DNA of 64,000 bases, from assembly GCA_902581585.1 (NCBI GenBank), contig CACHPB010000001.1:186001-250000 (forward strand). Direction: 5' to 3'. The stretch's first letter is position 1, and the number at the start of each line of letters is the position of its first letter. Source of the DNA: an uncultured Pelagibacteraceae bacterium (GTDB lineage Bacteria > Pseudomonadota > Alphaproteobacteria > Pelagibacterales > Pelagibacteraceae). Below the pieces are notes generated by a model. That model was given only the letters and a program-made list of their open reading frames with translations, was not told the DNA's origin and did no database searches. Positions 31,285 through 49,271 of the stretch are shown here, piece by piece. Both the position numbers and the translations under genes were made by a program.

Positions 31285-31320
31285 TAAATATTTCTATAAA
31301 AACTCATGAAATTAATTTAT

Positions 31321-31359
31321 GCTCTCTTGGTGAAATTTGTAGACACAAAGAACTTAAAA
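31321..31359 (+). pseudogene. Decayed 5' half of tRNA-Leu(UAA), oldest attachment scar
   Basis: This 39-nt stretch matches the first 39 nt of the intact tRNA-Leu at 47266 with four substitutions (positions 3, 7, 18 and 31 of the tRNA). It lacks the 3' half. It sits downstream of sequence similar to the last 40 nt of the tRNA-Leu promoter module (AAACTCATGAAATTAA). As the leftmost and most degraded copy, it probably is the chromosome's original 5' half, left behind by the first insertion. Confidence 0.85.
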
Positions 31360-31496
31360 AACATAGGGTAGGGATATTTTATGGTCTCATACAGTCTTAA
31401 TTCCCATTAAATCCTATACTTTAAAAAAAAATTTAATTATTTTTATTGGAAAATATGAATAATAAATTCTCTCAGGCTAACGTAGACTAAAAGTTG
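31360..31496 (+). repeat. Left-end repeat shared with island C
   Basis: This sequence aligns with 40690-40838. Both have ACATAGGGTAG, GTCTCATACAGTCTTA, CCCATTAAATCCTA and TTGGAAAATATGAATAATAA in the same order and spacing, except that island C has one extra ~10-bp unit. One 11-bp arm-like unit at 31486-31496 (ACTAAAAGTTG) still resembles the island C arm sequence; the first unit has decayed. Confidence 0.75.
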
Positions 31497-32060: not shown

Positions 32061-32063
32061 AAA

Positions 32064-33767: not shown

Positions 33768-33772
33768 TTTAA

Positions 33773-34372
33773 ATGAAAAAAAGTATTTTAATTATTGTTA
33801 TTTTTTTATTTTCTATAAAAAATATTTCATCCAATGAAAATGTCGACTCTTATTCTTTGTTTTATGAGGAAGATGGAGAAGGTGCATTAATTCTTTATTA
33901 TCAAAACGATGATATATTTGGACAAATTATATCATACGGAGGATACAAATGGTTTAAAACCACATATACTAAATCTGACAATGAAACTTCAACTTTTATT
34001 CAACCATCTAATTTAGGAATATCAATGAATCAGGACTCTTGGATGCAGCCAAGATATGAAATTGATGAGTTCGTTTATGAATTTGAGGAAATTAATAACG
34101 ATCAATTTTTAACATTTTATTCACCAGAAGCTACTCAAACTATAGTTGGCTACATGACAAGAAACGAGTCTTTTTCAATCGCCTCCTCATCAAGCGTTGC
34201 CTGGTATGCAGGTACTTTTATTCCAATAAAAAATACAAAGAATCTAGATGATTTGCTTAAGCTAAATACAAAAACTTTCTGTATGCTGATAAACGATCAA
34301 ACAATAATAAATGTGAAGAGTAAACAGCTTAATATAGAAGATCTCACAACTTATAGAGAACCTTGTATATGA
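33773..34372 (+). CDS. Secreted protein of unknown function (island A)
   Basis: A 199-residue protein with a signal peptide (KKSILIIVIFLFSIKNISS) and a mature part of beta-strand character rich in aromatic and acidic residues (for example GALILYYQNDDIFGQIISYGG). No family is recognised. It starts 5 bp after the protease stop, and its stop codon overlaps the next ATG (ATGA), so it is translated in the same operon. Confidence 0.68.
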   Translation: MKKSILIIVIFLFSIKNISSNENVDSYSLFYEEDGEGALILYYQNDDIFGQIISYGGYKWFKTTYTKSDNETSTFIQPSNLGISMNQDSWMQPRYEIDEFVYEFEEINNDQFLTFYSPEATQTIVGYMTRNESFSIASSSSVAWYAGTFIPIKNTKNLDDLLKLNTKTFCMLINDQTIINVKSKQLNIEDLTTYREPCI

Positions 34373-35475: not shown

Positions 35476-35478
35476 TAA

Positions 35479-35539
35479 TTTACTTATTTATATTGTTGAA
35501 TTATAAATTTTGACGTAAACACTCATGAAATTAACTCAT
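35479..35539 (+). promoter_or_regulatory. tRNA-Leu promoter module, copy 1
   Basis: A 61-nt segment ending directly before the tRNA fragment at 35540. It aligns without gaps to 43120-43180 and 47205-47265. TTGTTG at 35493-35498 and TAAACA at 35516-35521 are spaced by 17 bp. If active it now drives a truncated tRNA. Confidence 0.65.
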
Positions 35540-35578
35540 GCCCTCGTGGTGAAATTGGTAGACACAAAGGACTTAAAA
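35540..35578 (+). pseudogene. 5' half of tRNA-Leu(UAA), attachment scar 2
   Basis: An exact 39-nt copy of the 5' end of the intact tRNA-Leu (acceptor 5' strand, D arm and anticodon stem 5' strand through the AAAA of the anticodon loop). The 3' half is absent; the sequence turns to unrelated T-rich DNA at 35579. It marks the boundary of islands A and B. Confidence 0.9.
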
Positions 35579-35600
35579 TATTTTTTTAGAAAAAGTTAAC

Positions 35601-36464
35601 TTATTTATCTTTCACAGAAATTAATTCTGGATACTTATCAAATAAAATTTCAGCAGGTCTCTCTCCAGACCTTAATGGATCAATTAGCATTACTTGGCTA
35701 GGCATAATATTAGTTAAATTGCAATCTGTACCAAAAAGTTCAAAATAATTAAGTATATCTGAATACCATCTCACTTCAGCTTCCTTTGGTGAAGTAACTT
35801 CAAATGCAACCTTATTTTTACCAAAGTGTTCGAGCACTCCAGTTAGTACATCTGACTTACTATCATGAAGTTCAATTTCTTCATGATCAATAAGCATTGA
35901 AAATGCTCCATATTCAAAAAAAGGTTCAGCACTTTCAACAATTTGTTTTAATGTTGCAGGAGTATTTTTTTTTGTTTTATCCCATCCACTTTCTGGATGA
36001 TGTTCATAAATTATATTCATTCCATTTTTAATTGCATGATTGCACCAAGCTTTAATTTGATTTTCAGGGATGTCTCCAAATGTATTCATGAATTCCATTG
36101 CAGAAAATCCTAAATCTGCCGCAACATCAATTGCTTCATTTACTTTTCCCTTTTTAAAAGCTTTTATAAAATAACCATGATCCAAGTAAGGCTCTATCGA
36201 GTGTTTTTTGTAAAGATCATTTTTACGTTCTAACCATTCCTTTGGATGTCCTAGAACTTGCATTGTTGCAATTTTAACATGGTCAATCCTGTTACCTGCA
36301 ACCTCTAGAAAGTCTTCTAATTCACGAAGTCCCATTCTTTCGTGGTACCAAGGGCCTTCATCAAAACCCACATCTTTCAACCATAGTTGTGATTTAGTTC
36401 TGGGCTTGGGTTCTATAGCATTTAAATCAAATACTTTTGATATCGAATTTTTTGTTTTAGACAT
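35601..36464 (-). CDS. Phosphosulfolactate synthase (ComA)-like protein
   Basis: A 287-residue TIM-barrel protein of the ComA family. Regions matching ComA are LEDFLEVAGNRIDHVKIATM, IEPYLDHGYFIKAFKKGK with a following ADLGFSAMEFMNTFGDI, and the C-terminal NLTNIMPSQVMLIDPLRSG. ComA joins sulfite to phosphoenolpyruvate to give phosphosulfolactate in coenzyme M synthesis; bacterial relatives vary. It is divergent (152 bp) from the transporter genes, with a second ComA-like gene at their other end. The reaction in this organism is not established, and a different C3 or sulfonate substrate is possible. Confidence 0.75.
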   Translation of the reverse strand: MSKTKNSISKVFDLNAIEPKPRTKSQLWLKDVGFDEGPWYHERMGLRELEDFLEVAGNRIDHVKIATMQVLGHPKEWLERKNDLYKKHSIEPYLDHGYFIKAFKKGKVNEAIDVAADLGFSAMEFMNTFGDIPENQIKAWCNHAIKNGMNIIYEHHPESGWDKTKKNTPATLKQIVESAEPFFEYGAFSMLIDHEEIELHDSKSDVLTGVLEHFGKNKVAFEVTSPKEAEVRWYSDILNYFELFGTDCNLTNIMPSQVMLIDPLRSGERPAEILFDKYPELISVKDK

Positions 36465-36555
36465 GTTTTTGCTTTTATATTATTCAAATAGATAAATTTC
36501 TAACTAAATACTTCATTTTCATAGTTTTCTTGGAGATATAAAAAAATATAATTAG

Positions 36556-36585
36556 TTGAAAGACCCATAATGAACACGTTATACT
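36556..36585 (+). promoter_or_regulatory. Promoter of the TctC-type binding protein gene
   Basis: TTGAAA (36556-36561) and TATACT (36580-36585) are separated by 18 bp. A strong Shine-Dalgarno run (AAGGGGGG, about 36603-36610) lies 7 bp before the ATG at 36617. This SD is far stronger than is usual elsewhere in the window, as expected for an abundant periplasmic binding protein. Confidence 0.7.
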
Positions 36586-36616
36586 ACCTCTAACAATATT
36601 CTCAAGGGGGGAAATT

Positions 36617-37690
36617 ATGCGTAAAATTCTAATATTAATATTAATGTCGTTATTCTCGTTTGCATCAATTGGAAATGCAGATGTGAATTTCGCAGGCAAA
36701 ACAGTTACATGGGTTGTGCCATTTAAAGAAGGTGGTGGTACAAGTAGATTTGCAAGATTTATTCAACCTTTCTTAAAAAAATATTTACCTGGAAATCCTG
36801 ATGTCCAAATCATGCACATACCAGGAGGTGGAGCTATTAAAGGTTCAAATTATTTTGAAAAAAATGCAAAAGCAGATGGAACTTTTATTTTTGGATGCTC
36901 AACTTCAGTTATAGTTAATGTTGCGACTGGAAATCCACTTGTTAAATATAATCTTAGTGAATACCGACCAGTAGTTTTGCTACCACAAAATACTCATTGG
37001 TTCACACGTTCAGATTTAGCTGAGCCTCACGATCTATCAAAAATTAAAGAAAGAAAATTGGTTCTCTACGCATTGAAAACTCCAGCATCTGCAGATTTAT
37101 TTCACATATGGATTTATGAGAAACTTGGTATTAAAGGTGCCAAACCTATACCTGGTCTTTCATCTTCAGGAGGTTATCAAGCATTCCTAAGAGGTGAAAT
37201 TCATCTAAGTTCACATGGTGCAGCGAATTATGTAAAAAAAGTTAAGCCTGAAATAGAAAAAGGAAAAGTTGTAGATTTAATGACATTAGGAATTATTGGG
37301 GCTGATGGTTCAGTTTCTAGAAATCCTTTGGCACCAAATGCACCTACATTTCCTGAAATGTATGAGAAGGTAAATGGTAAAAAACTTGAGGGTGATGACT
37401 TAGAAGCATACTATGCAATAGGCGCTGCATGGTCTCAAGCATCTAAAGCAATGATGCTTCCAGCAGGTGCATCCGATGAAATAGTAAAAGCATACAGAGA
37501 TGCAGCTATTAAAATGACAAATGACCCAGAGTTTAAGGCTAAAGCTGTAAAAGCTCTTGGACCATTTCCATTAATCATAGGAGAAGAAGCAGGTGAAATT
37601 ATTAAAAAGGCTGCAGTATTTTCAGATACTACTAAAAAGCAATTAAATGCAGCTCTAAAGAAACATAAATTCACATATAGAGTTCAATAG
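36617..37690 (+). CDS. tctC: Tripartite tricarboxylate transporter substrate-binding protein (TctC/Bug)
   Basis: A 357-residue periplasmic binding protein with a signal peptide (cleavage near SIGNADVNFAG). The Bug-family signature appears as KTVTWVVPFKEGGGTSRFAR near residue 30 and the MHIPGGGAIKGSNYF ligand loop. It delivers a carboxylated substrate to the TctA permease encoded downstream. Genes of this family bind citrate, other carboxylates or sulfonated acids; flanking ComA-like genes hint at a sulfonate or C3-phosphate-related acid, which is inference. A strong promoter, a strong SD and a downstream hairpin suggest far more of this protein than of the permease. Confidence 0.9.
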   Translation: MRKILILILMSLFSFASIGNADVNFAGKTVTWVVPFKEGGGTSRFARFIQPFLKKYLPGNPDVQIMHIPGGGAIKGSNYFEKNAKADGTFIFGCSTSVIVNVATGNPLVKYNLSEYRPVVLLPQNTHWFTRSDLAEPHDLSKIKERKLVLYALKTPASADLFHIWIYEKLGIKGAKPIPGLSSSGGYQAFLRGEIHLSSHGAANYVKKVKPEIEKGKVVDLMTLGIIGADGSVSRNPLAPNAPTFPEMYEKVNGKKLEGDDLEAYYAIGAAWSQASKAMMLPAGASDEIVKAYRDAAIKMTNDPEFKAKAVKALGPFPLIIGEEAGEIIKKAAVFSDTTKKQLNAALKKHKFTYRVQ

Positions 37691-37706
37691 AACAAATAAA
37701 AAAAGT

Positions 37707-37736
37707 GCTGCTAGCTATTAGCTAGCAGCTTTTTTT
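37707..37736 (+). terminator. Intrinsic terminator/attenuator between tctC and tctA
   Basis: GCTGCTAGC (37707-37715) pairs with GCTAGCAGC (37721-37729) around a TATTA loop, and is followed by seven T (37730-37736). The next base is the A of the tctA start codon. It should stop most transcripts after tctC and reduce permease expression. The hairpin also occupies the place where a ribosome site for tctA would be. Confidence 0.88.
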
Positions 37737-39722
37737 ATGGAACAATTATTAGCTGCACTTTTTCAACTTTTTGAACCTACTCATTTAGCATTTCTATTTG
37801 CAGGTACTTTACTTGGTTTAATTGTTGGTATTCTACCAGGTATGGGTGGAACATCAGGTTTAGCTCTTGTTTTACCTTTCGTTTTTACAATGGAGCCATC
37901 ACATGCTCTTGCAATGATGATTGGAGTTTTGGCTCCTACAACAACTTCTGATACTTTTCCTGCTGTGCTTATGGGAGTACCTGGTACTGCAGGATCTCAA
38001 GCAACAGTAATGGATGGTTTTCCACTTTCCAAAAAAGGCATGGCTGCAAGAGCGTTAAGTGCTGCCTTTAGTGCTTCGTTGCTTGGAGGTATATTTGGAG
38101 CTTTTATATTATCAATATCTATTTATTACGCCATTCCAATAATAATGGCTTTTGGATTTGGAGAACAGTTCCTTTTAGTCGTTCTTGCTTTATTAATGGT
38201 TGGAGCTCTTACAGGTGACAATTTATTTAAAGGTATTGCCTCTTGTTTTTTAGGATTAATTATTGGATCAATAGGAACAGCCCCAATTACAGGAGATCCA
38301 AGATACACATTTAATACATTGTATCTTTTAGAAGGTGTTCCTCTTGTTGTTGTTGGACTAGGATTGTTTGCAATTCCAGAAATAGTTGGCCTACTTGATG
38401 CTAAAGGCTCAATTGCAAAATCACTGAATACAAAAAAAGGGTGGTTCACAGGTTTAAAAGATGTAGTAAAAAATTGGTTTTTAGTTTTAAGATGTTCTAC
38501 TCTCGGTTGTCTAGTTGGAGCTTTACCAGGTTTAGGAGGGACAGTAGTTGATTGGATTGCGTATAGTCACTTAAAACAAACCACAAAAGATACTTCTCAA
38601 TTTGGCAAAGGAGATATCAGAGGAGTTATAGCACCTGAGTCTGCAAATAATGCAAAAGAGGGTGGAGCATTAATTCCAACATTGATTTTTGGAATACCTG
38701 GTTCTGGTAATAAGGTTTTATTACTTGGAGGTTTTGTTCTAATTGGAATTGAACCTGGTTTAGATATGGTAACGACAAACTTAGATCTTACCTATCTAAT
38801 GATTTGGTCATTAGCTATTGCAAATATTTTAGGTGCTGGGATTTGTATGGGCTTTTCATCTCAAATTTCGAAATTCACTTTAGTTCCATATTACATACTT
38901 GCACCTGTAATGGTTTGTTTAATATTTTTTGCAACATTTAACATTAATAGGGACTGGTATGATTTTATTGGACTATTATCATTTGGTATAATTGGTATTA
39001 CCTTTAAAAACTTTGGTTGGTCTAGACCGGCACTTTTAATTGGTTTCTTTTTATCAAGCAAAGTTGAACTGCTAAGCTATCAAACTCAAGCAGTATATGG
39101 TTTAAGTTTTTTATCCCGTCCAGTTTCAATAATTCTTATAATTTTGTGTCTTGCTACTATAGTTCTTTTGACAAAACAAAAGTTTGATAGCAATTATAAA
39201 TCTGATCTTATTAAAGGTAAACTTACTCAAATTTATTATATAGTCATATTACTCTGTCTACCTTTATCTATGATTTGGTTTACAAGTAGTTTAGATTATC
39301 GAGCTAATTTGTTTCCAATAAGTCTAAGTGTAATAGCTTTATCGCTTTTAGTTTTTATACTTATCATAAAAATTGCTGACTTAAAAAATTTATCATTTTT
39401 AAATAATACATTTATGAAATTTGCTCGATCAAATATTTTTGAAATAAGTGGGAACTTTAATAATCAACTTTTTTATTATTTTAGTTTTATTGGTTTCTTA
39501 TTAATGAATTTTATATTTGGTTTTCCAATTGCAGCAGCAATTTTTATAAATATATTTATATTATTTCACAATAGAAAAGCTTATGTGTCATCAATTTGTA
39601 TTTCTGCTGTATTGATGGTAATACTCTGGTTGTTATCCTCCTTGCTAACTTTACAGTTTCCAAATGGTTTGATAGGATTATTTATCGATTTACCTTGGTG
39701 GCTAGGTGGGCAATTGAATTAG
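37737..39722 (+). CDS. tctA: TctA-TctB fusion permease
   Basis: A 661-residue membrane protein. Residues 1 to about 490 are TctA: GTLLGLIVGILPGMGGTSG, PTTTSDTFPAVLMGVPGTAG and CLVGALPGLGGTVVDW are the duplicated glycine-proline signatures. The last 160 residues carry four more hydrophobic helices in the layout of the small TctB subunit, so the two are fused in the order A-B, and no separate tctB exists nearby. It forms the secondary transporter served by the upstream binding protein. Its ATG directly follows the U-tract of a terminator, so how it is initiated is unclear. Confidence 0.9.
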   Translation: MEQLLAALFQLFEPTHLAFLFAGTLLGLIVGILPGMGGTSGLALVLPFVFTMEPSHALAMMIGVLAPTTTSDTFPAVLMGVPGTAGSQATVMDGFPLSKKGMAARALSAAFSASLLGGIFGAFILSISIYYAIPIIMAFGFGEQFLLVVLALLMVGALTGDNLFKGIASCFLGLIIGSIGTAPITGDPRYTFNTLYLLEGVPLVVVGLGLFAIPEIVGLLDAKGSIAKSLNTKKGWFTGLKDVVKNWFLVLRCSTLGCLVGALPGLGGTVVDWIAYSHLKQTTKDTSQFGKGDIRGVIAPESANNAKEGGALIPTLIFGIPGSGNKVLLLGGFVLIGIEPGLDMVTTNLDLTYLMIWSLAIANILGAGICMGFSSQISKFTLVPYYILAPVMVCLIFFATFNINRDWYDFIGLLSFGIIGITFKNFGWSRPALLIGFFLSSKVELLSYQTQAVYGLSFLSRPVSIILIILCLATIVLLTKQKFDSNYKSDLIKGKLTQIYYIVILLCLPLSMIWFTSSLDYRANLFPISLSVIALSLLVFILIIKIADLKNLSFLNNTFMKFARSNIFEISGNFNNQLFYYFSFIGFLLMNFIFGFPIAAAIFINIFILFHNRKAYVSSICISAVLMVILWLLSSLLTLQFPNGLIGLFIDLPWWLGGQLN

Positions 39723-39738
39723 ATAAATAGAATTTATA

Positions 39739-40533
39739 ATGACTGATGTAACATTTCCTAAATTACCTTTCATAAAAAGAAAGGAAAAACCTCGTGAGAC
39801 GGGTATAAATTATGTAAGAGCACCTGTGATGGTGGGAAATTGTATTGATGATTACCTAGAGGCATATGCAAACCTTGTTGATATCTTTAAGATTTCTGGG
39901 AAACAAGGTGCAATGATGAGCAAAAAATCTCTTTTAAGATTTATTGAAACTTGCAAAAAACATAGTGTTCAAGTTGCATTAGGAAACCCAATTATGGACG
40001 TTGCATTGTCTGGTGGGAAAGAAGTGGTAGATGATTATCTAGATACTGTTGTTCATCTTGGTATTGATATAATTGAAATTTCAAGAATAGCTCGTTCTTT
40101 AGATGATGATGAGATGTGTAGACTGATCGAAAATGCAACAGGCAAAGGGATAAAAGTTATTAATGAGGTTGGTGTCGCGTTTGCACATTCCAAGGTTATC
40201 GAGGAAGAAATATTTGTAGAACGAATTAAAATGCAATCTAAAAGATTTATTGAGGCTGGATCTTGGAAAATATTACTAGAATCAGAAGGTTTGACAGAAA
40301 ACCTTGATAAGAAAGATTATAGATGGAATGTAATTGATAAAATCATTAGTCCACTTGAATTGAATCAGTTTATGGTTGAAGCTGATGATCAAGATGTATT
40401 ATCAAAATATATCGATATCTATGGTCCTGGTATAAATATGATGGTTGATCATAGTAGAGTTCTCAAAATGGAAGATGCTCGAATAGGGTATGGACCATCT
40501 CAATCCCTGTGGGGTAAAGTAGTAAAATATTAG
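39739..40533 (+). CDS. Second phosphosulfolactate synthase (ComA)-like protein
   Basis: A 264-residue ComA-family TIM-barrel protein, clearly divergent from the one at 35601. Matching regions include IDDYLEAYANLVDIFKIS (family IDFVKF region), GIDIIEISRIARSLDDDE and GIKVINEVGVAFAHSK, with ILLESEGLTENL as the acidic strand. It begins 16 bp after tctA and is likely co-transcribed. Two paralogues around one transporter suggest consecutive or complementary steps. Whether it uses sulfite and phosphoenolpyruvate is unknown. Confidence 0.75.
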   Translation: MTDVTFPKLPFIKRKEKPRETGINYVRAPVMVGNCIDDYLEAYANLVDIFKISGKQGAMMSKKSLLRFIETCKKHSVQVALGNPIMDVALSGGKEVVDDYLDTVVHLGIDIIEISRIARSLDDDEMCRLIENATGKGIKVINEVGVAFAHSKVIEEEIFVERIKMQSKRFIEAGSWKILLESEGLTENLDKKDYRWNVIDKIISPLELNQFMVEADDQDVLSKYIDIYGPGINMMVDHSRVLKMEDARIGYGPSQSLWGKVVKY

Positions 40534-40560
40534 ATTAAATTAGTATAATTTTTTAAAAAA

Positions 40561-40582
40561 GTTAGCCACCAGTTAGACAACG
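40561..40582 (+). repeat. Arm-like tandem 11-bp repeat, right end of island B
   Basis: Two tandem imperfect units, GTTAGCCACCA (40561-40571) and GTTAGACAACG (40572-40582). The unit length of 11 bp equals that of the arm repeats in islands C and D, but the sequence is different. Best read as integrase arm-type sites of a separate recombinase specificity. Confidence 0.55.
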
Positions 40583-40589
40583 ATAATTC

Positions 40590-40619
40590 TTGAACAAGAT
40601 AAATGCGTTGTGTTAAAAT
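40590..40619 (+). promoter_or_regulatory. Promoter before tRNA-Leu fragment 3
   Basis: TTGAAC (40590-40595) and TAAAAT (40614-40619) with an 18-bp spacer, about 32 bp before the tRNA fragment. It differs entirely from the 61-nt module upstream of the other tRNA copies, so this island supplied its own promoter. Confidence 0.55.
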
Positions 40620-40651
40620 AAAAGATAGATATAACAATGCAAACTCTAGGA

Positions 40652-40690
40652 GCCCTCGTGGTGAAATTGGTAGACACAAAGGACTTAAAA
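40652..40690 (+). pseudogene. 5' half of tRNA-Leu(UAA), attachment scar 3
   Basis: An exact 39-nt copy of the tRNA-Leu 5' half, ending in the anticodon loop. It is followed by GACATAGGGTAG, the left-end sequence of island C, in place of the tRNA 3' half. It marks the boundary of islands B and C. Confidence 0.9.
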
Positions 40691-40838
40691 GACATAGGGT
40701 AGAGTAATCTTATAGTCTCACACAGTCTCATACAGTCTTAAATCCCATTAAATCCTACACTTTAAAAAAACCTTTAATTATTTTTATTGGAAAATATGAA
40801 TAATAAATTCTCTCAAACTAGAAGCAGACTAGAAGTCA
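40690..40838 (+). repeat. Left end of island C with arm repeats
   Basis: Shared with 31360-31496. Contains tandem AGTCTCACAC/AGTCTCATAC units, CCCATTAAATCCTA, and then two 11-bp units: ACTAGAAGCAG (40817-40827) and ACTAGAAGTCA (40828-40838), followed by GGGAGATAAAAT. Confidence 0.78.
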
Positions 40839-40864
40839 GGGAGATAAAATAATATGATTATCCA

Positions 40865-41362
40865 ATGAAAAATTTTCTGGCAATTTTGAAGCTTTTAGAA
40901 ATTAAATTAAAAACCTCAGGAACTATAGGTTATTTAATTTATCTCATAATTGGTTTAACAGTAATGTTTGCGATTTGGACACCAATATTTCAATTTATTG
41001 GATGGTTAATTTCACCATTTACAACTCCAATAATTGACATTAAAAATTTTGGATCTTTATCAATATTTGGTTTGATTGGATACTCATTGTTAATTTTGCT
41101 AATACTCGCAGCTCTAACAGGAATTATTGCTTGTATTTTTGATATATTCAAATCTATTTATAAAAAAGAAAAAATTAATTTTAAAATAAAAGAATTCATT
41201 TTGGGTGTTGGATCTATATTATTTGTTATATTTTTAGCTAAATATTTTGAAAATGGGCAAATCAGAAATATAATTATTGGTTTATTATTATTAGGTGGAT
41301 TAGGTAATATTTTAATTGCTTTTGATAACAAAAAAATTTTAGAAGAAAATGATAATAGCTAG
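40865..41362 (+). CDS. Membrane protein of unknown function (island C)
   Basis: A 165-residue protein with four predicted transmembrane helices (about residues 18-50, 64-92, 110-125 and 135-152) and charged loops. No family is recognised. It starts 26 bp after the arm repeats, so the island's left end probably carries its promoter. Its composition is like the surrounding genome. Confidence 0.65.
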   Translation: MKNFLAILKLLEIKLKTSGTIGYLIYLIIGLTVMFAIWTPIFQFIGWLISPFTTPIIDIKNFGSLSIFGLIGYSLLILLILAALTGIIACIFDIFKSIYKKEKINFKIKEFILGVGSILFVIFLAKYFENGQIRNIIIGLLLLGGLGNILIAFDNKKILEENDNS

Positions 41363-41457
41363 ATTAAATTGGAATACACCACTTTATAAAGTAGATGAAT
41401 TTGTAACCAAATTTAGAAATAAATATAAAAATAGAAAAATAAGAATTGATATAAAGC

Positions 41458-41498
41458 TCACGCAAACGAAGTGCTTTATTTATCTTTTTAGAAGATTA
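41458..41498 (+). terminator. Weak hairpin, possible terminator
   Basis: AAAGCTCAC and GTGCTTT can pair with one bulge around a 10-nt loop, followed by a T-rich but interrupted tail. It lies in the 141-bp gap between two island C genes. This is weak evidence. Confidence 0.3.
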
Positions 41499-41503
41499 CA
41501 TTA

Positions 41504-42052
41504 ATGAAAAGACCAAATTTTAATGTAGATATTTTTTTTGAGATTTTGTTGGGAAAAAATTTAGATAAATTAGTCAAAAAATTTCCATTTTTAAAAATGC
41601 CGGATTTTTTTTTTGGTTATGCTTTAGCAAAAGCTAGTGGTTTTAAAGGTTCTTTATTCAATTTTAGAGATGAGGCTGAACCTTTTCCATTAAAAGAAAG
41701 ATTTAAACAAACAGATAAAAAATTAATTTACAAATCATTAGTTCAATTAAGGGATGGTGATTCAAAGGGTATTTATAGTTTATCTATAGGTTTATTAACT
41801 GAAAAAAATATAAAAAATGAATTTCTAGTTTATCATTACTACACTTCAGATGATAGTAATTATCCACAAATTGTAAAAATTTATGACACAAACAAAGTTC
41901 CAAAGATTTCTGAAATTAAAAAAGATGTCTCAAAACTGATAAAGAAAGAAAAATTTTTCACTCCATTTATTAAAAAAAAACTGAAACAATGGAAAAATAC
42001 TAAAATGGTTGAAGATAGAAGATTAACAAAACAAGAAATGAGAGAATTATAA
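41504..42052 (+). CDS. Protein of unknown function (island C)
   Basis: A 182-residue, lysine-rich soluble protein with no recognised family. It has an N-terminal aromatic stretch (KFPFLKMPDFFFGYALAKAS), a beta-rich middle (KLIYKSLVQLRDGDSKGIYS) and a basic helical C terminus. It has no signal peptide or membrane segment. It starts 141 bp after the membrane protein gene and is followed by a small membrane protein gene after 13 bp. Confidence 0.62.
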   Translation: MKRPNFNVDIFFEILLGKNLDKLVKKFPFLKMPDFFFGYALAKASGFKGSLFNFRDEAEPFPLKERFKQTDKKLIYKSLVQLRDGDSKGIYSLSIGLLTEKNIKNEFLVYHYYTSDDSNYPQIVKIYDTNKVPKISEIKKDVSKLIKKEKFFTPFIKKKLKQWKNTKMVEDRRLTKQEMREL

Positions 42053-42065
42053 AAATAAATTTAGG

Positions 42066-42284
42066 ATGAAAAAAAAAACAAACACAAAATCTATTTGGAT
42101 TACAGTAATATTTTTACTTTTGTTGATACATCTTTTTAGGTTAGCAGACAGAAATGATTGGTTAAAACCCAAAGAAAAAGAATCTTCCAATGAAATAATG
42201 CGTGAAGATACACTTAAAATAATTAAGGAAATTGAAAAAATGAAAAAACAAAATGAATTAATGAATAAAAATAACAACAATTAA
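42066..42284 (+). CDS. Small single-pass membrane protein (island C)
   Basis: A 72-residue protein with one hydrophobic segment (SIWITVIFLLLLIHLF, about residues 9-24) preceded by lysines and followed by a charged helix likely to form a coiled coil. No family is recognised. It sits between two other small genes with gaps of 13 and 4 bp, which supports it being real. Confidence 0.58.
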   Translation: MKKKTNTKSIWITVIFLLLLIHLFRLADRNDWLKPKEKESSNEIMREDTLKIIKEIEKMKKQNELMNKNNNN

Positions 42285-42288
42285 GTAA

Positions 42289-43053
42289 ATGAAAAAATTC
42301 ATTCACACTCTTAAGAAAAAAGCAGACAAAGATGACCCTAAATCATTAAATGAATTAGCATTTGAATATTACGCAGGAAAAAATATAAAAAAAAATAATA
42401 AATTAGCAGTAAAATTATGGCTTAAATCTGCAAAACAAAAATATCCAATGGCTTATTATAATCTTGGTTATATGTATTATAATGGATTTGGAGTTACCAA
42501 AAATATAAAAAAAGCAATTTATTATCATGAACTCAGCTGTAAGATAGAACATAAGTATCAAACCACATCTTTATTTTGGCTGGCTTACAATATTTATCTA
42601 AATAAAATAAGTGGTAAACCAAATATCAAGAAAGGTCTTAAATACTTAGAAGAATCTGCAAAAAGAAATTTAGTCAATGCTCAATGGTTTTTATCATTAT
42701 TTTATAAAGATGGAAAAGTTTCCTATCAAGATCAACAAGATCCAAAGAAAAAAGTTCACGAATATAAAATAAAAGTCAATAAAGCTAAAACAATAAAATA
42801 TCTTAAGATGGCATCTATTAATAACTTTATACCTGCTACTTCACTATTAGCATCATGTTACATTAATGGGTTCGGAGTTAAAAAAGATTATACTACGGCC
42901 TATGTGCTTTTGGATTCAATCAAATTTTCCAATAATAGTAAAATGATAAGTTCAATGACATTAACTCAAGAAGATAAAAAATACTTAAAGAAAACGATTA
43001 TTAATCAAAAAAAAAGAGTTTTATATCTCTTAAATAAATTAAAAAAAAAATAA
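42289..43053 (+). CDS. Sel1-like repeat protein
   Basis: A 254-residue protein of Sel1/TPR-like helical repeats. Clear repeats are ALAVKLWLKSAKQKYPMAYYNLGYMYYNG-type units near residues 30-70, 70-110, 110-145 and 165-215, with the typical AxxxLGxxYxxGxGVxKD consensus seen in LASCYINGFGVKKDYTTA. It has no signal peptide, so it may act in the cytoplasm as a protein-binding scaffold. Last gene of island C, ending 25 bp before the right-end arm repeats. Confidence 0.78.
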   Translation: MKKFIHTLKKKADKDDPKSLNELAFEYYAGKNIKKNNKLAVKLWLKSAKQKYPMAYYNLGYMYYNGFGVTKNIKKAIYYHELSCKIEHKYQTTSLFWLAYNIYLNKISGKPNIKKGLKYLEESAKRNLVNAQWFLSLFYKDGKVSYQDQQDPKKKVHEYKIKVNKAKTIKYLKMASINNFIPATSLLASCYINGFGVKKDYTTAYVLLDSIKFSNNSKMISSMTLTQEDKKYLKKTIINQKKRVLYLLNKLKKK

Positions 43054-43077
43054 CAACTTATAGGATTTTATAGGATA

Positions 43078-43099
43078 ACTAGAAGCCAACTAGAAGCCA
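43078..43099 (+). repeat. Arm-like tandem repeat, right end of island C
   Basis: Two identical 11-bp units, ACTAGAAGCCA (43078-43088 and 43089-43099), then GAGAGATAAAAT. The same type and orientation as the left-end pair of the same island (40817-40838), and unlike those of island D. Confidence 0.8.
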
Positions 43100-43119
43100 G
43101 AGAGATAAAATAAAAAAAA

Positions 43120-43180
43120 TTTACTTATTCCTCTTGTTCAATTATAAATATTGGCATAAACACTCATGAAAATAACTCAT
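43120..43180 (+). promoter_or_regulatory. tRNA-Leu promoter module, copy 2
   Basis: A 61-nt segment, exactly abutting the tRNA fragment, aligned without gaps with copies at 35479 and 47205. TTGTTC (43134-43139) and TAAACA (43157-43162) are 17 bp apart. It likely still transcribes the truncated tRNA fragment. Confidence 0.65.
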
Positions 43181-43219
43181 GCCCTCGTGGTGAAATTGGT
43201 AGACACAAAGGACTTAAAA
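43181..43219 (+). pseudogene. 5' half of tRNA-Leu(UAA), attachment scar 4
   Basis: An exact 39-nt copy of the tRNA-Leu 5' half. It is followed by GCCGAGGGATTCACAAGAG instead of the tRNA 3' half. It marks the boundary of islands C and D and, by position, the insertion of the youngest island. Confidence 0.9.
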
Positions 43220-43343
43220 GCCGAGGGATTCACAAGAGAGTCAGTCCGTGGTAGTCTAACTTAGTATAAAAATACATTTTTTTATAATATTTATAATCAA
43301 ACTCAATTTATCGTTGTAAACTCTGATAATTTTTTTTCAATAA

Positions 43344-43365
43344 ACCAGTACAATACCAGTACATA
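43344..43365 (+). repeat. Arm-like tandem repeat, left end of island D
   Basis: Two 11-bp units, ACCAGTACAAT (43344-43354) and ACCAGTACATA (43355-43365), followed by GAGATATAT. They match the repeat at the right end of the island (47163-47184). Confidence 0.78.
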
Positions 43366-43394
43366 GAGATATATATAATTAATTTGAAATTTTT

Positions 43395-45737
43395 ATGAAT
43401 TTAGATCAAATTTTTAGGAACCCAAATACTAAACATAGATTAACATTATTTAAGACTCAAAGTATCAAATGGGTTGAAGGAAAAATATTCTTAAAAAATA
43501 ATAAACCATATATAAAATGTTTAGCTAGCGAAAAAGATAGACCGGCAAAACCCGAGGAAATCGTTAGGCAATTATGGATAAAAAAAATTATAGAAGAATA
43601 TAGTTATCCCAAAGATAGACTAAGAGTAGAGTATGCTGTTTGGTTTGGTTCTGGAGTAAGTGATAAAAGTGCAGATATAGTAATAATGCACGAGGATAAT
43701 GAACATCCTTATATTATATTTGAAGTAAAAAAACCAAAACGTAACGATGGTATAAAGCAGTTAAAATCATACTGTAATGCTGAAGGATCACCTCTTGGAG
43801 CATGGTCAAACGGTGAAGAACTTATTATCTTAAATCGACAAGAACCCAATACTTTTGTGCAGATTTCATCATTACCAACAATTGACCAAAATCTTCAAGA
43901 TATAATTACGGAACAGTGGACTATAGATAAATTAATTTCTGAGAATAAACTTGTTAAACAACAACTTTCTCTAAAAAAAATTATATTAGATCTGGAAGAT
44001 TTGGTTTTAGCAAATGCAGAAGGTATCGACGATACTTTTGATGAAGTTTTTAAACTTATTTATGCAAAACTTTATGATGAATGGTCAGCCAAAAATGATC
44101 CTACAAGAGATAAAAAGGTTCATTTTAGAATTTATGGTGAGTCTCCAATAGAATTGTCAAATAAGATAAATAATTTATTTAATAAATCTAAAGATAAATG
44201 GAGAGGTATTTTTTCAAGAGATGAGAAAATAAAACTTAAGCCTGAGCATTTACTAACATGTGTTTCTTTTCTTCAAGATATAAGATTATTCAATGCTAAT
44301 TTACAAATTATTGACGAGGCATTTGAATATTTAATTACCGAAGTCGCCAAAGGTAAGAAAGGTCAATACTTCACACCAAGATGGGTTATAGATATGTGTG
44401 TAAAAATATTAAATCCAAAGATTAATGAGCGTGTAATTGATCCATCTTGTGGATCTTCTGGTTTTACAACTCACTCAATATTCTGGGTAGCGGGACAAAA
44501 ATTTACAATTGATGGATTTGATCCGGAAATAGTTGAGTATGCAAATTCTATGATTTACGCAATCGACTCAAGTCCCAAGGCTGTTAAAATTGCAAAGGCA
44601 TTAAATTTAATTGCAGGCGATGGTAAGTCGAATGTCTTTGAACTTAATAGTCTTAACCCCGTTAAATGGAATGATACAGGAAAATCAAGTTTTAGAGATC
44701 TTCTAACAAGATTTGATGAAAATTCAAAAGATGAAGATAATCAAATAAACTTTCAGAATTTTGATTTTGATATTGTTATGACAAACCCACCTTTTTCTGG
44801 AGGTATTAGTGAAAGAGAAATATTAAGACAATATGTTTTGGCAGAAAAATCAGGTCGAACAGTATCTAAAATTGGAAGAGATATTATCTTTATAGAGCGA
44901 AATATAAAATTTCTAAAAGATGGAGGAAGAATGGCAATTGTATTACCACAAGGTAGACTAAGCAATTCAAATGATCTTTTTATAAGAAACTATATATTTA
45001 ATTCTGGAAGAGTTTTAGGTGTTATCGGATTACACGGTAATACCTTTAAACCTCATACTGGAGCAAAAACCAGTGTATTAATTTTTCAAAAATATACCGA
45101 TGAAGAAAGAAAAAAAATTAATGAAATTAAGAATAAATTTATAAAAGATTGGGAAGAGTATTTTGATGAATTAAAATTATTAATATCTAAAAAAAAAATT
45201 GAAGAAAAAGATTTATCAAATTCTCTTATTTCTTTCTTAGAAGATGAGTTCGATGATATGAATAATGATGAAAATGATGGAGTTTCTGATGAGGAAGATT
45301 TAAAAGAAGAAGATGATGAAGAGACTTTAAAAGAAAGAATTGAGGATCTAGAAAAACAATTAAATAATCTACCTGGTCGATCGAAGGGAAAGGCTTCAAT
45401 TAAAAAAGCATTAAAATCTGCAATAAGAAAATTGGCTTCAAGATCTTTGAAAGGTCAGTTTGATTTCTTTATGAGAGAAGAAAAATTAATAAAAAAATTT
45501 TCAGAAATTTTTTTAAACGAGAAAACTACTCAAAAACTCAATTATAATATTTTTTTTGCTGTATCTGAAAAAGGAGGAAAAGATAATAGTGGTGATTTGA
45601 TTTATAAAAAAAATAATAATAATGACTTAGTTCTTGACGAACATGGTCATTTAATTGTTGAAAATGACTTAGATGATATAGCAAATGATTTTATTAAATT
45701 TGCAAAAAAAGAAAAACTTAACTTTTATAAGGAATAA
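43395..45737 (+). CDS. Restriction endonuclease-DNA adenine methyltransferase fusion (type IIB/type I-like)
   Basis: A 780-residue protein. The N-terminal 200 residues form a HSDR_N-type nuclease: PEEIVRQ near residue 53 and the PD-(D/E)xK core D94 ... E110-V-K112. After a helical section, the N6-adenine methylase has the KGQYFTPRWVIDMCV opening, SAM motif DPSCGSSGF (349-357) and catalytic NPPF (464-467). An acidic coiled-coil region (about 605-655) precedes a basic C terminus. There is no helicase/translocase domain, in contrast to HsdR. Paired with the specificity subunit that follows after 3 bp, this resembles BcgI-like type IIB systems, a classification that is inferred. Confidence 0.85.
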   Translation: MNLDQIFRNPNTKHRLTLFKTQSIKWVEGKIFLKNNKPYIKCLASEKDRPAKPEEIVRQLWIKKIIEEYSYPKDRLRVEYAVWFGSGVSDKSADIVIMHEDNEHPYIIFEVKKPKRNDGIKQLKSYCNAEGSPLGAWSNGEELIILNRQEPNTFVQISSLPTIDQNLQDIITEQWTIDKLISENKLVKQQLSLKKIILDLEDLVLANAEGIDDTFDEVFKLIYAKLYDEWSAKNDPTRDKKVHFRIYGESPIELSNKINNLFNKSKDKWRGIFSRDEKIKLKPEHLLTCVSFLQDIRLFNANLQIIDEAFEYLITEVAKGKKGQYFTPRWVIDMCVKILNPKINERVIDPSCGSSGFTTHSIFWVAGQKFTIDGFDPEIVEYANSMIYAIDSSPKAVKIAKALNLIAGDGKSNVFELNSLNPVKWNDTGKSSFRDLLTRFDENSKDEDNQINFQNFDFDIVMTNPPFSGGISEREILRQYVLAEKSGRTVSKIGRDIIFIERNIKFLKDGGRMAIVLPQGRLSNSNDLFIRNYIFNSGRVLGVIGLHGNTFKPHTGAKTSVLIFQKYTDEERKKINEIKNKFIKDWEEYFDELKLLISKKKIEEKDLSNSLISFLEDEFDDMNNDENDGVSDEEDLKEEDDEETLKERIEDLEKQLNNLPGRSKGKASIKKALKSAIRKLASRSLKGQFDFFMREEKLIKKFSEIFLNEKTTQKLNYNIFFAVSEKGGKDNSGDLIYKKNNNNDLVLDEHGHLIVENDLDDIANDFIKFAKKEKLNFYKE

Positions 45738-45740
45738 TCA

Positions 45741-47138
45741 ATGGCATCTGTAAGTGTTGTACCGACCTCTTTACTTGTAAGGCAAAAAAGATGTGACGCT
45801 GAATATTATCAAAAAAAATATTTAGAGTATGACAAATTAATGGATAAAAATAACTGGTTACCTTTAAAGAAGTATTTTACATCATGTGATTATGGCATTT
45901 CTATTAAGATGAATGAGGATTCAAAAGGCGAAAAAATTTTTAGAATGGATGATTTAAAAAAAGGTTTTGCTGTAGATTATAATATGAAGTATGCAGATGT
46001 TGATCAAAATACTGTTAATAGATATGAAGTTAAATATAACGACGTACTTTTTAATAGAGTAAATTCTGAAGAGTTTGTTGGAAGAACAGGGATATTTAAA
46101 TTAAAAAAAAAATATATATTTGCATCTTATTTGGTAAGAGTTAAAGCAAACTCTTCTATAACACCCGATGTGATAAATATTTTTCTTAATTGTAAATTTG
46201 GAAAATCATCTATCAAAAGATTATCAAGAAGAGCTGTTAATCAAGCAAATGTAAATGCTCAAGAGCTAAAATCAATCAGAATACCCAATATTACAAAAAA
46301 AATTATTACAAATTTAACTAATCTCTCAAATATGTCTTGGGATTTTTATGAAAAATCAAATTTGTTATACGATAAGGCTGAAAAGTTACTTCTTCATGCA
46401 TTAAATTTTAAAAAATTAAAAATAAACAATGACATTACTTTTTCAGAAAAATACAAAAATGTCGTAGCTTCTGGCAGAATAGATGCTGAGCATTTTATGC
46501 CAAAATATAAATCAATAACCTCACATATAAAAAATTACAGTAATGGTTATAAAAGACTAATTGATTTTATTTCAGTTTCTAAAGAAAAAATTGATCCCAA
46601 ATTAAATCCTGCAAAAGAAATTAAATATGTTGAATTGTCTGACATAAATCATTTAGTTGGAACAATAGAAAGTTCAAGTGAAATTCAAGGCAAATTTGCA
46701 CCAAGTCGTGCAAGAATGCTTTTAAATGAAAATGATATTATAGTTTCTTCTGTAGAGGGGTCATTCAATAAATCAGCTATTGTTCCAGATGAATTTAATA
46801 AATCTGTGGGCTCAACAGGTTTTTTTGTTTTTAAATCTAAACAAAATCAACCAGGTTATGTACTTGCATTAATTAAAAGTATTTTTTTTAAGGAACAAAT
46901 GCACAGAGAAGCCTCGGGTACAATATTGACTGCAGTTTCTGATAAATCTTTAAAAAATATTTTGATACCAATTCTTCCAAATAAAACTGTTAATGAAATA
47001 AATAAACTAATAATAGAGTCACACAAATTTCAAAAGAAAGCGTTAAAAATATTTAATGTGGCAAAAACAGCTTTGGAGATTTATATAGAAAAGAACGAGT
47101 CATTATCATTGGAATATATTAGGAAAAATATAAAATAA
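45741..47138 (+). CDS. DNA specificity subunit (HsdS-like)
   Basis: A 465-residue protein with two target-recognition-like halves: residues about 35-190 and 250-440, each ending in a helical segment (conserved-region pattern around NQANVNAQELKSIRIP and AVSDKSLKNILIP). The repeated IRIPNIT/ILIPILPN motif is typical of HsdS-type specificity subunits, and the two divergent halves imply a split recognition sequence. It begins 3 bp after the methylase-nuclease gene, whose product needs it to bind DNA. Its stop is 25 bp upstream of the island's right arm repeats. Confidence 0.85.
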   Translation: MASVSVVPTSLLVRQKRCDAEYYQKKYLEYDKLMDKNNWLPLKKYFTSCDYGISIKMNEDSKGEKIFRMDDLKKGFAVDYNMKYADVDQNTVNRYEVKYNDVLFNRVNSEEFVGRTGIFKLKKKYIFASYLVRVKANSSITPDVINIFLNCKFGKSSIKRLSRRAVNQANVNAQELKSIRIPNITKKIITNLTNLSNMSWDFYEKSNLLYDKAEKLLLHALNFKKLKINNDITFSEKYKNVVASGRIDAEHFMPKYKSITSHIKNYSNGYKRLIDFISVSKEKIDPKLNPAKEIKYVELSDINHLVGTIESSSEIQGKFAPSRARMLLNENDIIVSSVEGSFNKSAIVPDEFNKSVGSTGFFVFKSKQNQPGYVLALIKSIFFKEQMHREASGTILTAVSDKSLKNILIPILPNKTVNEINKLIIESHKFQKKALKIFNVAKTALEIYIEKNESLSLEYIRKNIK

Positions 47139-47162
47139 GCGAATATGGGATTTTATAGGATA

Positions 47163-47184
47163 ACCAGTACACAACCAGTACACA
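47163..47184 (+). repeat. Arm-like tandem repeat, right end of island D
   Basis: Two identical 11-bp units, ACCAGTACACA (47163-47173 and 47174-47184), followed by GAGAGATAAAT and the promoter module. Preceded by GGGATTTTATAGGATA, also present in the same place at the right end of island C. Confidence 0.8.
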
Positions 47185-47204
47185 GAGAGATAAATTAAAA
47201 AAAT

Positions 47205-47265
47205 TTTACTTATTCCACTTGTTGAATTATAAATATTAGCATAAATACTCATGAAATTCATTAAT
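47205..47265 (+). promoter_or_regulatory. Active tRNA-Leu (and probably nadK) promoter module
   Basis: The third copy of the 61-nt module. TTGTTG (47219-47224) and TAAATA (47242-47247) have a 17-bp spacer; transcription should start near 47254, 12 nt before the tRNA. NadK has only 4 nt between its ATG and the tRNA, so this promoter probably also drives nadK. Confidence 0.68.
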
Positions 47266-47351
47266 GCCCTCGTGGTGAAATTGGTAGACACAAAGGACTT
47301 AAAATCCTTGCCATTTATGGAGTGCCAGTTCGAGTCTGGCCGAGGGCACCA
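47266..47351 (+). tRNA. tRNA-Leu(UAA), intact
   Basis: An 86-nt class II tRNA. The acceptor strands GCCCTCG and CGAGGGC pair perfectly, with discriminator A and an encoded CCA. The anticodon stem AAGGA/TCCTT encloses loop CTTAAAA with anticodon TAA. There is a long variable arm (GCCATTTATGGAGT) and a T arm with GTTCGAGTC. This is the only complete copy in the window; its first 39 nt recur four times to the left as attachment scars. Confidence 0.97.
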
Positions 47352-47355
47352 CTAA

Positions 47356-48126
47356 ATGATTAATCCCCATATTCTTTTTGATAACACGAAGCAGTCTAGA
47401 AAAATAAAAAATTTTTTAGAGCAAAAAATTAATAATTTTTCATTGAGCAAATGTAATTTATTAATAGTAATTGGTGGTGATGGTTTCATGCTTGCATCAT
47501 TAAAAAAATATAATAAATACAAAAAACCTTTTTATGGTATAAATGCTGGCAGTTATGGTTTTTTGATGAATAAATTCTCTTCAAAAAATACTGTTAAAAA
47601 TTTATCAAAAGCAAAAGCTGTTACAATTTCACCTTTAGAAATGAACGTTAAAAATAAGTTAAACAAAATTAAAAAATCTATTGCTATAAATGAGGTATCA
47701 ATTTTAAGACAAAGCAGACAAACAGCATCGCTTGAAATCTCAAATGGTTCACAAAAAATTATAAAAAAATTAGTTTCTGATGGAGTGTTGATATCAACTC
47801 CAGCAGGAAGCACTGCTTACAATATGTCGGTATATGGTCCCATTTTAAATTTAGATTCTAACAAATTATCAATTAGACCTATTAGTGCATTTAGACCAAG
47901 AAGGTGGAAGGGAAGAATTGTAAGCGATAAATCAAAAATTATTATTAAAAATCTTAATATTAATAAAAGACCTATAAGTGCTGTAGCCGATAATTATGAG
48001 GTCAGAAATGCAAAGTCAATTTCTATCCAGACGAATAAAAGAATTAAATTTAATCTTTTATATGATTCAAATAAAAGTCTTCAAAAGAAAATTAAAATAG
48101 AACAAATCAGAAAAGAAACTAATTAA
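47356..48126 (+). CDS. nadK: NAD kinase
   Basis: A 256-residue NAD kinase that makes NADP+. The signature GGDGFMLASL near residue 42 (GGDG kinase motif), INAGSYGFLMN and the second conserved block SDGVLISTPAGSTAYN are clear. The ATG is four bases after the CCA of tRNA-Leu, leaving no room for a separate promoter or ribosome site, so it should be transcribed together with the tRNA. This coupling probably explains why islands at this site restore the tRNA's 5' side. It overlaps the next gene by one base. Confidence 0.95.
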   Translation: MINPHILFDNTKQSRKIKNFLEQKINNFSLSKCNLLIVIGGDGFMLASLKKYNKYKKPFYGINAGSYGFLMNKFSSKNTVKNLSKAKAVTISPLEMNVKNKLNKIKKSIAINEVSILRQSRQTASLEISNGSQKIIKKLVSDGVLISTPAGSTAYNMSVYGPILNLDSNKLSIRPISAFRPRRWKGRIVSDKSKIIIKNLNINKRPISAVADNYEVRNAKSISIQTNKRIKFNLLYDSNKSLQKKIKIEQIRKETN

Positions 48127-49271
48127 TGAGTAATAAAAATTTTGGGTTCGGTACTCAAATTAGAAAATCACCATATTTTGATGCAACAGTGAGGTGGGGT
48201 GCAACAGGTTTTTCAGTCTACAATCATATGTATATTCCTCGTGATTTTGGAGATCCTGAGCAAAACTTTTGGAACTTAATTCAAACAGCAATACTTTGTG
48301 ATGTTGCTGTTGAAAGGCAAGTCGAAATTACAGGACCTGATGCTTATAAATTTATACAATTATTAACTCCAAGAGATCTTACAAAACTATCAGTTGGTCA
48401 ATGTAAATATGTTTTAATTACAAATGCAGAAGGTGGAATTTTAAACGATCCAGTTCTTTTAAGGCTCGGAAATAATCATTTTTGGTTATCTTTAGGTGAT
48501 AGTGATATTTTATTATGGGCTCAAGGAGTTGCAATTAATTCAGGATTAAATGTTAAAATTTCAGAACCTGATGTTTCGCCATTGCAATTACAAGGACCAA
48601 ATTCAGGTAAAATAATGATTAAATTATTTGGAGATAACATAAAAGATTTAAAATATTATTGGTTCAGAGAATTAGAACTCGATGGAATTCCATTGGTAGT
48701 ATCCCGAACTGGTTGGTCTAGTGAATTTGGATATGAATTATTTTTAAGAGATGGATCTAAAGGAGACGAGCTATACGAGAAAATAATGTCTGCTGGAAAA
48801 GAATTTGGAATTAAACCTGGTCACACATCTTCAATAAGGAGAATTGAAGGAGCAATGCTTTCTTATCACGCAGATGCTGATATTCATACTAATCCTTTTG
48901 AGTTAGGTTTAGATCGTTTAGTTAATTTAGAAAGTAATGTAAATTTTATAGGTAAGGAAGCCCTCAAAAAGATAAAGGCCGATGGAATAAAAAGACTGCA
49001 GGTTGGCCTAGAGATTAAATGTGAAAAGTTAATTGCTCCAAATACAACATTTTGGATATTGAGAGCCGACAATAAAAATATTGGAAAAATTACTTCAGCT
49101 GTTTATTCACCTCGTCTAAAAAAAAATATTTCCCTAGCCATGGTAGATGTTGCTTATTCTAAAATTGGAACAAAGATTGATGTTATAATAGAAGATAGAA
49201 TATTCGAATGTGAAGTTATTGAGAAACCTTTCTTTGATCCAAAAAAACAAATTACTTCTAAATCAATTTAA
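48126..49271 (+). CDS. GcvT-family (DmdA-like) methyltransferase
   Basis: A 381-residue folate-binding protein of the aminomethyltransferase/DMSP demethylase family. The regions GYTVYNHM-like (GFSVYNHMYIPRDFGD), VERQVEITGPDA, TPRDL, GGILNDPVLL, SPLQLQGPNSG and GYELF are strongly reminiscent of DmdA, which takes a methyl group from dimethylsulfoniopropionate to tetrahydrofolate. SAR11 genomes carry several such paralogues, and DmdA status needs the specific DMSP-binding residues. It overlaps nadK by one base. I leave the symbol blank because a different methyl donor is quite possible. Confidence 0.8.
   Translation: MSNKNFGFGTQIRKSPYFDATVRWGATGFSVYNHMYIPRDFGDPEQNFWNLIQTAILCDVAVERQVEITGPDAYKFIQLLTPRDLTKLSVGQCKYVLITNAEGGILNDPVLLRLGNNHFWLSLGDSDILLWAQGVAINSGLNVKISEPDVSPLQLQGPNSGKIMIKLFGDNIKDLKYYWFRELELDGIPLVVSRTGWSSEFGYELFLRDGSKGDELYEKIMSAGKEFGIKPGHTSSIRRIEGAMLSYHADADIHTNPFELGLDRLVNLESNVNFIGKEALKKIKADGIKRLQVGLEIKCEKLIAPNTTFWILRADNKNIGKITSAVYSPRLKKNISLAMVDVAYSKIGTKIDVIIEDRIFECEVIEKPFFDPKKQITSKSI

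Follow-up and report, generated by a model that had tools for sequence, protein, structure and literature searches.

Islands inserted at tRNA-Leu(UAA) in SAR11 bacteria probably swap the promoter of the tRNA and of nadK

In SAR11, a bacterial group that ranks with the most abundant in the sea, islands inserted in the tRNA-Leu(UAA) gene probably exchange the promoter of this tRNA and of the adjoining NAD kinase gene, nadK, at each insertion. Under this explanation, the anticodon loop would be the insertion site of a tyrosine recombinase, and the right end of each element would consist of upstream sequence of its own followed by a copy of tRNA positions 1–39. Insertion would strand the host promoter and the old 5′ half at the element's left end. 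The tRNA would be rebuilt from the element's 5′ half and the host 3′ half, behind element-borne upstream sequence that most likely includes a promoter. Because the few bases between tRNA and nadK leave no space for a promoter, nadK would be transcribed with the tRNA, as would a DmdA-like gene in this clade, and their promoter would be exchanged every time an element inserts. If this is correct, mobile elements repeatedly replace the promoter of the single UUA-reading tRNA of SAR11, of its NAD kinase and, in one clade, of the DmdA-like gene, so that acquiring genes and re-wiring a core operon would be a single event; a likely essential operon would then appear to be driven by a mobile-element promoter.

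In the window, the 64-kb stretch of DNA that was analysed and that its relatives place in a SAR11 (Pelagibacteraceae) genome, the first 39 nt of the intact tRNA-Leu(UAA) form the right end of an island (island C) and the remainder is host sequence (Table 1). The initial annotation had placed the nadK ATG 4 nt past the CCA of the tRNA, and this was borne out (tRNA end 47351, ATG 47356). The nadK product scored 301.8 bits against the NCBIfam NAD kinase model NF003406 (cut-off 211). The DmdA-like gene behind it matched NF009133 at 376.9 bits, below that model's cut-off of 410, and PDB 3tfh at E 1e-84. It overlaps or abuts nadK in all 48 loci that have it (47 by 1 nt, one abutting), is absent from 47 loci with more than 1.5 kb of downstream sequence, and probably forms one operon with nadK. 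UUA accounts for 197 of 364 leucine codons in seven window ORFs. Folding of the tRNA–nadK leader gave no signal (z = −0.98).

Table 1 Features of the tRNA-Leu(UAA)–nadK locus and its islands in the window
Feature	Position	Strand	Basis or content
Decayed upstream module of leftmost 5′-half copy	31260..31320	+	59–61% identical to three intact modules
Displaced 5′ half, decayed (4 mismatches), leftmost	31321..31359	+	5′-half search
Leftmost island	31360..35578	+	Four ORFs of 80 aa or more, all on the + strand; one HtrA-like, others unknown
Upstream module, right end of leftmost island	35479..35539	+	61-nt repeat comparison
Displaced 5′ half, exact 39 nt	35540..35578	+	5′-half search
Island A	35579..40690	.	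ComA-like (−), 357-aa ORF, TctA, ComA-like
Class II (different) upstream region, island A right end	40590..40651	+	Sequence comparison
Displaced 5′ half, exact 39 nt	40652..40690	+	5′-half search
Island B	40691..43219	+	Three + strand ORFs, one with Sel1 repeats, others unknown
Island B left direct-repeat pair (ACTAGAAG type)	40816..40852	+	Repeat search
Island B right direct-repeat pair (ACTAGAAG type)	43077..43113	+	Repeat search
Upstream module, island B right end	43120..43180	+	61-nt repeat comparison
Displaced 5′ half, exact 39 nt	43181..43219	+	5′-half search
Island C	43220..47304	+	HSDR_N + N6-methylase protein (780 aa); 465-aa protein
Island C left direct-repeat pair (ACCAGTACA type)	43343..43376	+	Repeat search
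Island C right direct-repeat pair (ACCAGTACA type)	47162..47198	+	Repeat search
Putative promoter module, island C right end, in the active position upstream of tRNA-Leu and nadK	47205..47265	+	61-nt repeat; class I upstream family
tRNA-Leu(UAA), intact, CCA encoded	47266..47351	+	ARAGORN; 5′-half copies
nadK (NAD kinase)	47356..48126	+	NCBIfam NF003406; conserved gap to tRNA
DmdA-like aminomethyltransferase-fold gene	48126..49271	+	Start overlaps nadK stop

The close spacing is conserved among relatives. Close loci were the best 80 of 383 relatives; their genomes are related, making the loci non-independent, and ORFs were called mechanically. Of the 79 close loci that can be read across the junction, 76 have a tRNA–nadK gap of 3–8 nt, and the remaining three have an intervening gene (L079, whose sequence begins within nadK, was left out of this count). 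Among 58 more distant loci chosen across genera, the tRNA lies within 20 nt of nadK in 34 and is separated from it by intervening genes in 7; ARAGORN found no tRNA-Leu in the examined stretch of 17. Together, the 4-nt gap and its conservation support the earlier proposal that nadK has no room for a promoter of its own. In 13 of the 17 loci with no tRNA-Leu in the stretch, which are all 13 from genera g5, g7, g9 and g12, the unlinked nadK is divergent from its neighbour, with 35–42 nt upstream; a co-directional gene precedes nadK in the other four (L134, L136, L168 and L172), one of which (L168) has a tRNA-like remnant in the gap. Genes intervene between tRNA and nadK in 11 loci (the three close ones, the seven distant ones and L023), and in every one of these they are co-directional. 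The pattern would fit a nadK that lost its own promoter once it was tied to an upstream unit.

These loci also bear on an explanation that we regard as unlikely, in which the tRNA alone matters, nadK transcription starts inside the tRNA 3′ half, and the closeness of the two genes reflects genome streamlining. Consistent with it, each of 12 genomes tested has one full tRNA-Leu(UAA) (in G003, 31 tRNAs were listed and Leu(UAA) once, and tRNAs at stretch ends could escape), and nadK is intact in L155, where nothing but a tRNA 3′ half precedes it and the previous gene lies 157 nt away. However, in 9 of the 11 intervening-gene loci nadK lies at most 21 nt behind a co-directional gene, with no adjoining tRNA 3′ half listed (L157, at 50 nt, and L155 are the others), and unlinked nadK has upstream space of its own in all 13 cases. 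The displaced 3′ half adjoining nadK in L155 marks a 3′-half-restoring insertion. This second kind of insertion, in which the 3′ half is displaced downstream, was seen at L155:1500–2800 (nadK oriented +) and L023:1–260, and both have a common right-end sequence ending in GAAGGGAAGGAGACT.

The initial annotation had taken the dependence of nadK on the tRNA promoter as the functional reason for 5′-half restoration, and had concluded that islands must restore the promoter. We retain the dependence of nadK as an extra reason; the main one is the tRNA itself. Since tRNA-Leu(UAA) is single-copy in the genomes tested, displacing its 5′ half obliges an element to bring in a new promoter for the sake of the tRNA alone: a 5′ half left behind with its promoter would silence the tRNA, so both need restoring whether or not nadK lies downstream. 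nadK and, in this clade, the DmdA-like gene ride along with this re-supply. As a statement about all loci, 'must' is too strong, given the loci with an extra gene between tRNA and nadK, at least one of which (L155) has the 3′-half-restoring insertion, and two loci (L078 and L177) in which a co-directional ORF runs from upstream 13 nt into the tRNA 5′ end and leaves no intergenic space for a promoter.

Exact copies of tRNA positions 1–39 start at 35540, 40652 and 43181 in the window, in addition to the one at 47266 within the intact tRNA. The initial annotation had missed a further, decayed copy at 31321–31359, preceded by a decayed module at 31260–31320. With this fifth copy the array comprises four tandem islands, and the module at 35479 becomes the right end of the leftmost. 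A native chromosomal promoter at 35479 is ruled out by the decayed 5′ half and module further left; the decayed module is the probable original promoter region. Cargo differs between the islands, that of island C being a restriction–modification-like pair. Other loci also contain island A with its pair of ComA-like genes and its TctA transporter (5,112 bp in L066 and L068, 5,111 bp in L075), and its first gene lies on the opposite strand, 22–23 nt from the 5′ half. The last gene of the leftmost island (ORF 34363–35475) contains a tandem array of a 54-nt unit at 34737–35384. Islands B and C carry direct-repeat pairs that differ between the islands and are alike at both ends of one, and are likely to be arm-type recombinase sites; neither a left nor a right pair was detected in the leftmost island.

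Empty and occupied sites were compared. We surveyed 80 loci with an intact tRNA (the window and 79 others), seeking displaced 5′-half copies with at most five mismatches within 10 kb or the contig, and sorted upstream sequences into classes that are patterns of our own definition. At least one displaced copy was in reach in 46 of the 80 loci, window included, yielding 70 intervals with the layout of a 5′-fragment island, that is, an intact tRNA and a displaced fragment in the same orientation with the element between them. In one clade, native class III upstream sequence adjoins the tRNA in eight empty loci; in eight occupied loci of the same clade, class III is displaced and island-borne class I now stands before the tRNA. 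Left flanks of the empty and occupied loci are 85–98% identical over 400 nt. The proposal that an inserted element places new sequence upstream of the rebuilt tRNA is thus supported by eight loci in each state. Of the 80 active upstream sequences, 48 belong to class I and have a GATAA motif, and 11 belong to class I but lack the motif; 8 are of class III, 7 of class II and 2 of class IV, and the rest are one native hybrid and three others (one of them a contig end). Displaced 5′ halves decay: 20 of 81 have mismatches, compared with 1 of 119 functional halves (Fisher p = 4e-8).

The islands also share an internal organization. Intervals span 0.27–7.7 kb (median 2.7 kb; n = 70). Island ORFs are predominantly co-directional with the tRNA (157 to 14, or 143 to 13 with each cargo set counted once), as compared with 186 to 96 for control ORFs upstream of the arrays and 226 to 77 for those downstream of nadK in the same loci. 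The first ORF is co-directional in 62 of 69 islands and starts 160–190 nt past the half in 49 of 69. Of the 69 islands that reach 600 nt, 63 have a 9-mer direct-repeat pair at the right end and 53 have one at the left end, compared with 3% of random windows. The right repeat unit differs from its own left end by a mean of 0.46 mismatches (50 islands with both) and from those of other islands by 2.58, and none of 2,000 permutations matched own ends as well.

In all 69 islands the last ORF runs in the direction of the tRNA, as might be expected if read-through from co-directional upstream genes fed tRNA and nadK and made promoter restoration unneeded; the upstream ORFs that overlap the tRNA in L078 and L177 would suit this as well. 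We nevertheless consider read-through quite improbable as the general explanation, because at least 64 nt (median 131) is kept between last ORF and 5′ half in all 69 islands, 44 nt likewise stand before the tRNA at the native empty sites L080 and L090, and the gene upstream of the tRNA is divergent in L161, L167 and L171.

Whether the upstream sequences have the properties of promoters was assessed by sequence comparison and modelling. The initial annotation's three gap-free 61-nt modules (35479, 43120 and 47205) were confirmed, with pairwise identities of 0.87, 0.87 and 0.80; the next-best site in the 64-kb window matches at 39 of 61 positions (mean 19.1, s.d. 3.7), and the repeat is far beyond chance. 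The region before the half at 40652 does differ, as had been noted, with 39–43% identity to the three. A generic consensus scan of 47100–47500 returned two promoter-like sites compared with a shuffle mean of 2.5, and both sites lie outside the module. Scoring with an E. coli sigma-70 matrix failed to pick out the modules: against random windows, the class I module reached p = 0.15 and 4 of 31 upstream families fell below 0.05; against shuffles, 1 of 31 families did so. Pooled p values over families were 1e-4 and 7e-3, respectively. A SAR11 promoter model trained on the upstream regions of 26 other tRNAs of G003 gave AUCs against random windows of 0.78 for held-out tRNAs, 0.83 and 0.82 for functional upstream sequences, 0.75–0.85 for displaced ones and 0.80 for viral ones. 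Taken singly, the five window copies were non-significant (p 0.11–0.22), and the model backs the promoter reading at the level of the group only.

ATAAA occurs in 25 of 31 upstream families compared with 16.9 in shuffles; TATAA is weakly enriched (20 of 31 versus 14.3, p = 0.018); and a bipartite TTG...TATAA-type pattern, composed after viewing the sequences, occurs in 9 of 31 versus 1.9. The SAR11 model's best site in the window modules is TTTACT-N17-TATAAA and not the TTGTTG-N17-TAAATA that had been put forward earlier, but native hybrids of the L072 type keep only the tRNA-proximal part of the module, so TTGTTG-N17-TAAATA fits these better. Ahead of the tRNA half of pelagiphage HTVC105P, TTGAAG-N17-TATACA can be seen by eye. 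On this basis, the upstream modules likely act as promoters.

The module could instead be kept as part of the recombination site, such as an attP arm or an accessory-protein site. Its placement between repeat pair and core in every class I island, and its unremarkable scores with the E. coli consensus, are compatible with such a role, to which we give a low probability as the sole explanation. Against it, island A, the integrase-bearing elements and the phages pair unrelated upstream sequences with the same core, and native class III sequence is present at empty host sites. The promoter and recombination-site roles can coexist.

How the islands move is suggested by their relationship to integrase-bearing elements. 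A PF00589 search of 45 genomes of island-bearing loci placed no match within any island (contig numbers were paired by accession number, verified on two cases, and divergent integrases could escape, the L111 integrase itself scoring 23.6 bits, under the 27.1 cut-off). Comparison of five integrases with 171 island ORFs gave no match at E 1, and profile searches found no integrase in the window islands. The PF00589 search and the five-integrase comparison being empty, the possibility that every island carries its own integrase is rejected as far as tested. The same tRNA half is present in three kinds of element: islands, integrase-bearing elements and phage. It is also carried by an IMG/VR contig of 7.8 kb whose ends are identical over 99 nt. 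L111 is circular-looking and carries its own integrase. Relatives of the L111 integrase were found in 5 of 297 genomes, two of the five being weak, and 2 of the 5 lie at tRNA-Leu(UAA), in integrase-bearing elements of 7.8 kb (L258) and 10.2 kb (L259) in G248 and G182; the L111 integrase had no match in the phage collection searched. L258 shares its tRNA half and its ACTAGAAAC repeat pair with several islands, L092 and L096 among them, so that island att ends match those of an autonomous element, as in trans-mobilised (hitcher or CIME-like) elements. Pelagiphage HTVC105P carries the same 5′ half beside its integrase gene. The half lies between the integrase and RNA polymerase genes (L260:2916–3176); once the phage had inserted, the host tRNA promoter would therefore face the phage RNA polymerase gene. 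Co-directional islands, the absence of a detected integrase and matched island-specific repeats suggest mobilisation in trans, and integrases supplied by satellites or phages are the likeliest source.

A broader reading, which we offer tentatively and consider rather doubtful in full, is that the tRNA-Leu(UAA)–nadK locus is a promoter-relay cassette array. The integrase-poor cassettes would be expressed from the resident tRNA promoter and truncated 5′ half, and each would hand a fresh promoter to tRNA-Leu, nadK and the next gene; the repeat pairs would be arm-type sites tying each cassette to one of many satellite or phage integrases. For promoter supply itself, the SAR11 locus offers many natural before-and-after pairs for testing.

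Several known systems resemble parts of this arrangement. SXT, a conjugative element of about 100 kb, integrates at the 5′ end of prfC and provides a new 5′ end and promoter; it differs from the SAR11 islands in size and in targeting a protein gene. Integron attC sites differ from the tRNA-half core of these islands. Islands at the 5′ end of dusA replace the 5′ end of the host gene, with putative −10 and −35 elements before and after insertion, but are integrase-bearing and target a protein gene, unlike the SAR11 tRNA islands, according to the passages on them in PMC4482086. For ICEKp1 at tRNA-Asn, the relevant passages of PMC13023037 describe how the resident tRNA promoter, after insertion, drives int, which is the element's first gene and lies 161 bp downstream; there, unlike here, insertion is at the 3′ end and the tRNA retains its own promoter. 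Tycheposons, as summarized second-hand in PMC10872708, are cargo-bearing elements of 4–200 kb at marine bacterial tRNA genes with a tyrosine recombinase; the SAR11 islands differ in their size (0.27–7.7 kb) and in that no tyrosine recombinase was found at an end. One reported pelagiphage encodes an integrase, and its tRNA-Leu fragment exactly matches that of HTCC7211 (PMC3861242); such pelagiphages are integrase-bearing phages, and the passages on them contain neither promoter supply nor nadK. Islander tRNA islands share with ours the tRNA insertion, the displaced upstream 5′ fragment and possible tandems; the sections of PMC4383910 on these list 159 of 3,919 islands with a 5′ fragment and four tandems of three or more, and require an integrase per island and at least 2 kb, whereas none was found here and 30 of 70 intervals are shorter than 2 kb.

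Among titles, opening lines of abstracts and passages of the open-licence literature, no description of the array or its promoter exchange was found. Those texts thus appear to contain no account of the scale seen here, of tandem cassettes poor in integrases, of variable repeats that match within an island, or of promoter exchange in a downstream protein operon. Restoration of a tRNA from the 5′ side with an element promoter is, as far as the cited passages go, known but rare: pTN3-like archaeal integrases use the 5′ half of tRNA-Leu as attB, and a promoter of the element then drives the rebuilt tRNA, a situation that the portion of the review on these elements calls seldom met in bacteria (PMC8371274). 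If our explanation holds, the SAR11 islands are an extensive bacterial case of it. As those passages describe them, the pTN3-like elements are archaeal and their integrase gene is split on integration, whereas the SAR11 islands are bacterial, arrayed and mostly integrase-less, and their insertion would affect a downstream protein operon.
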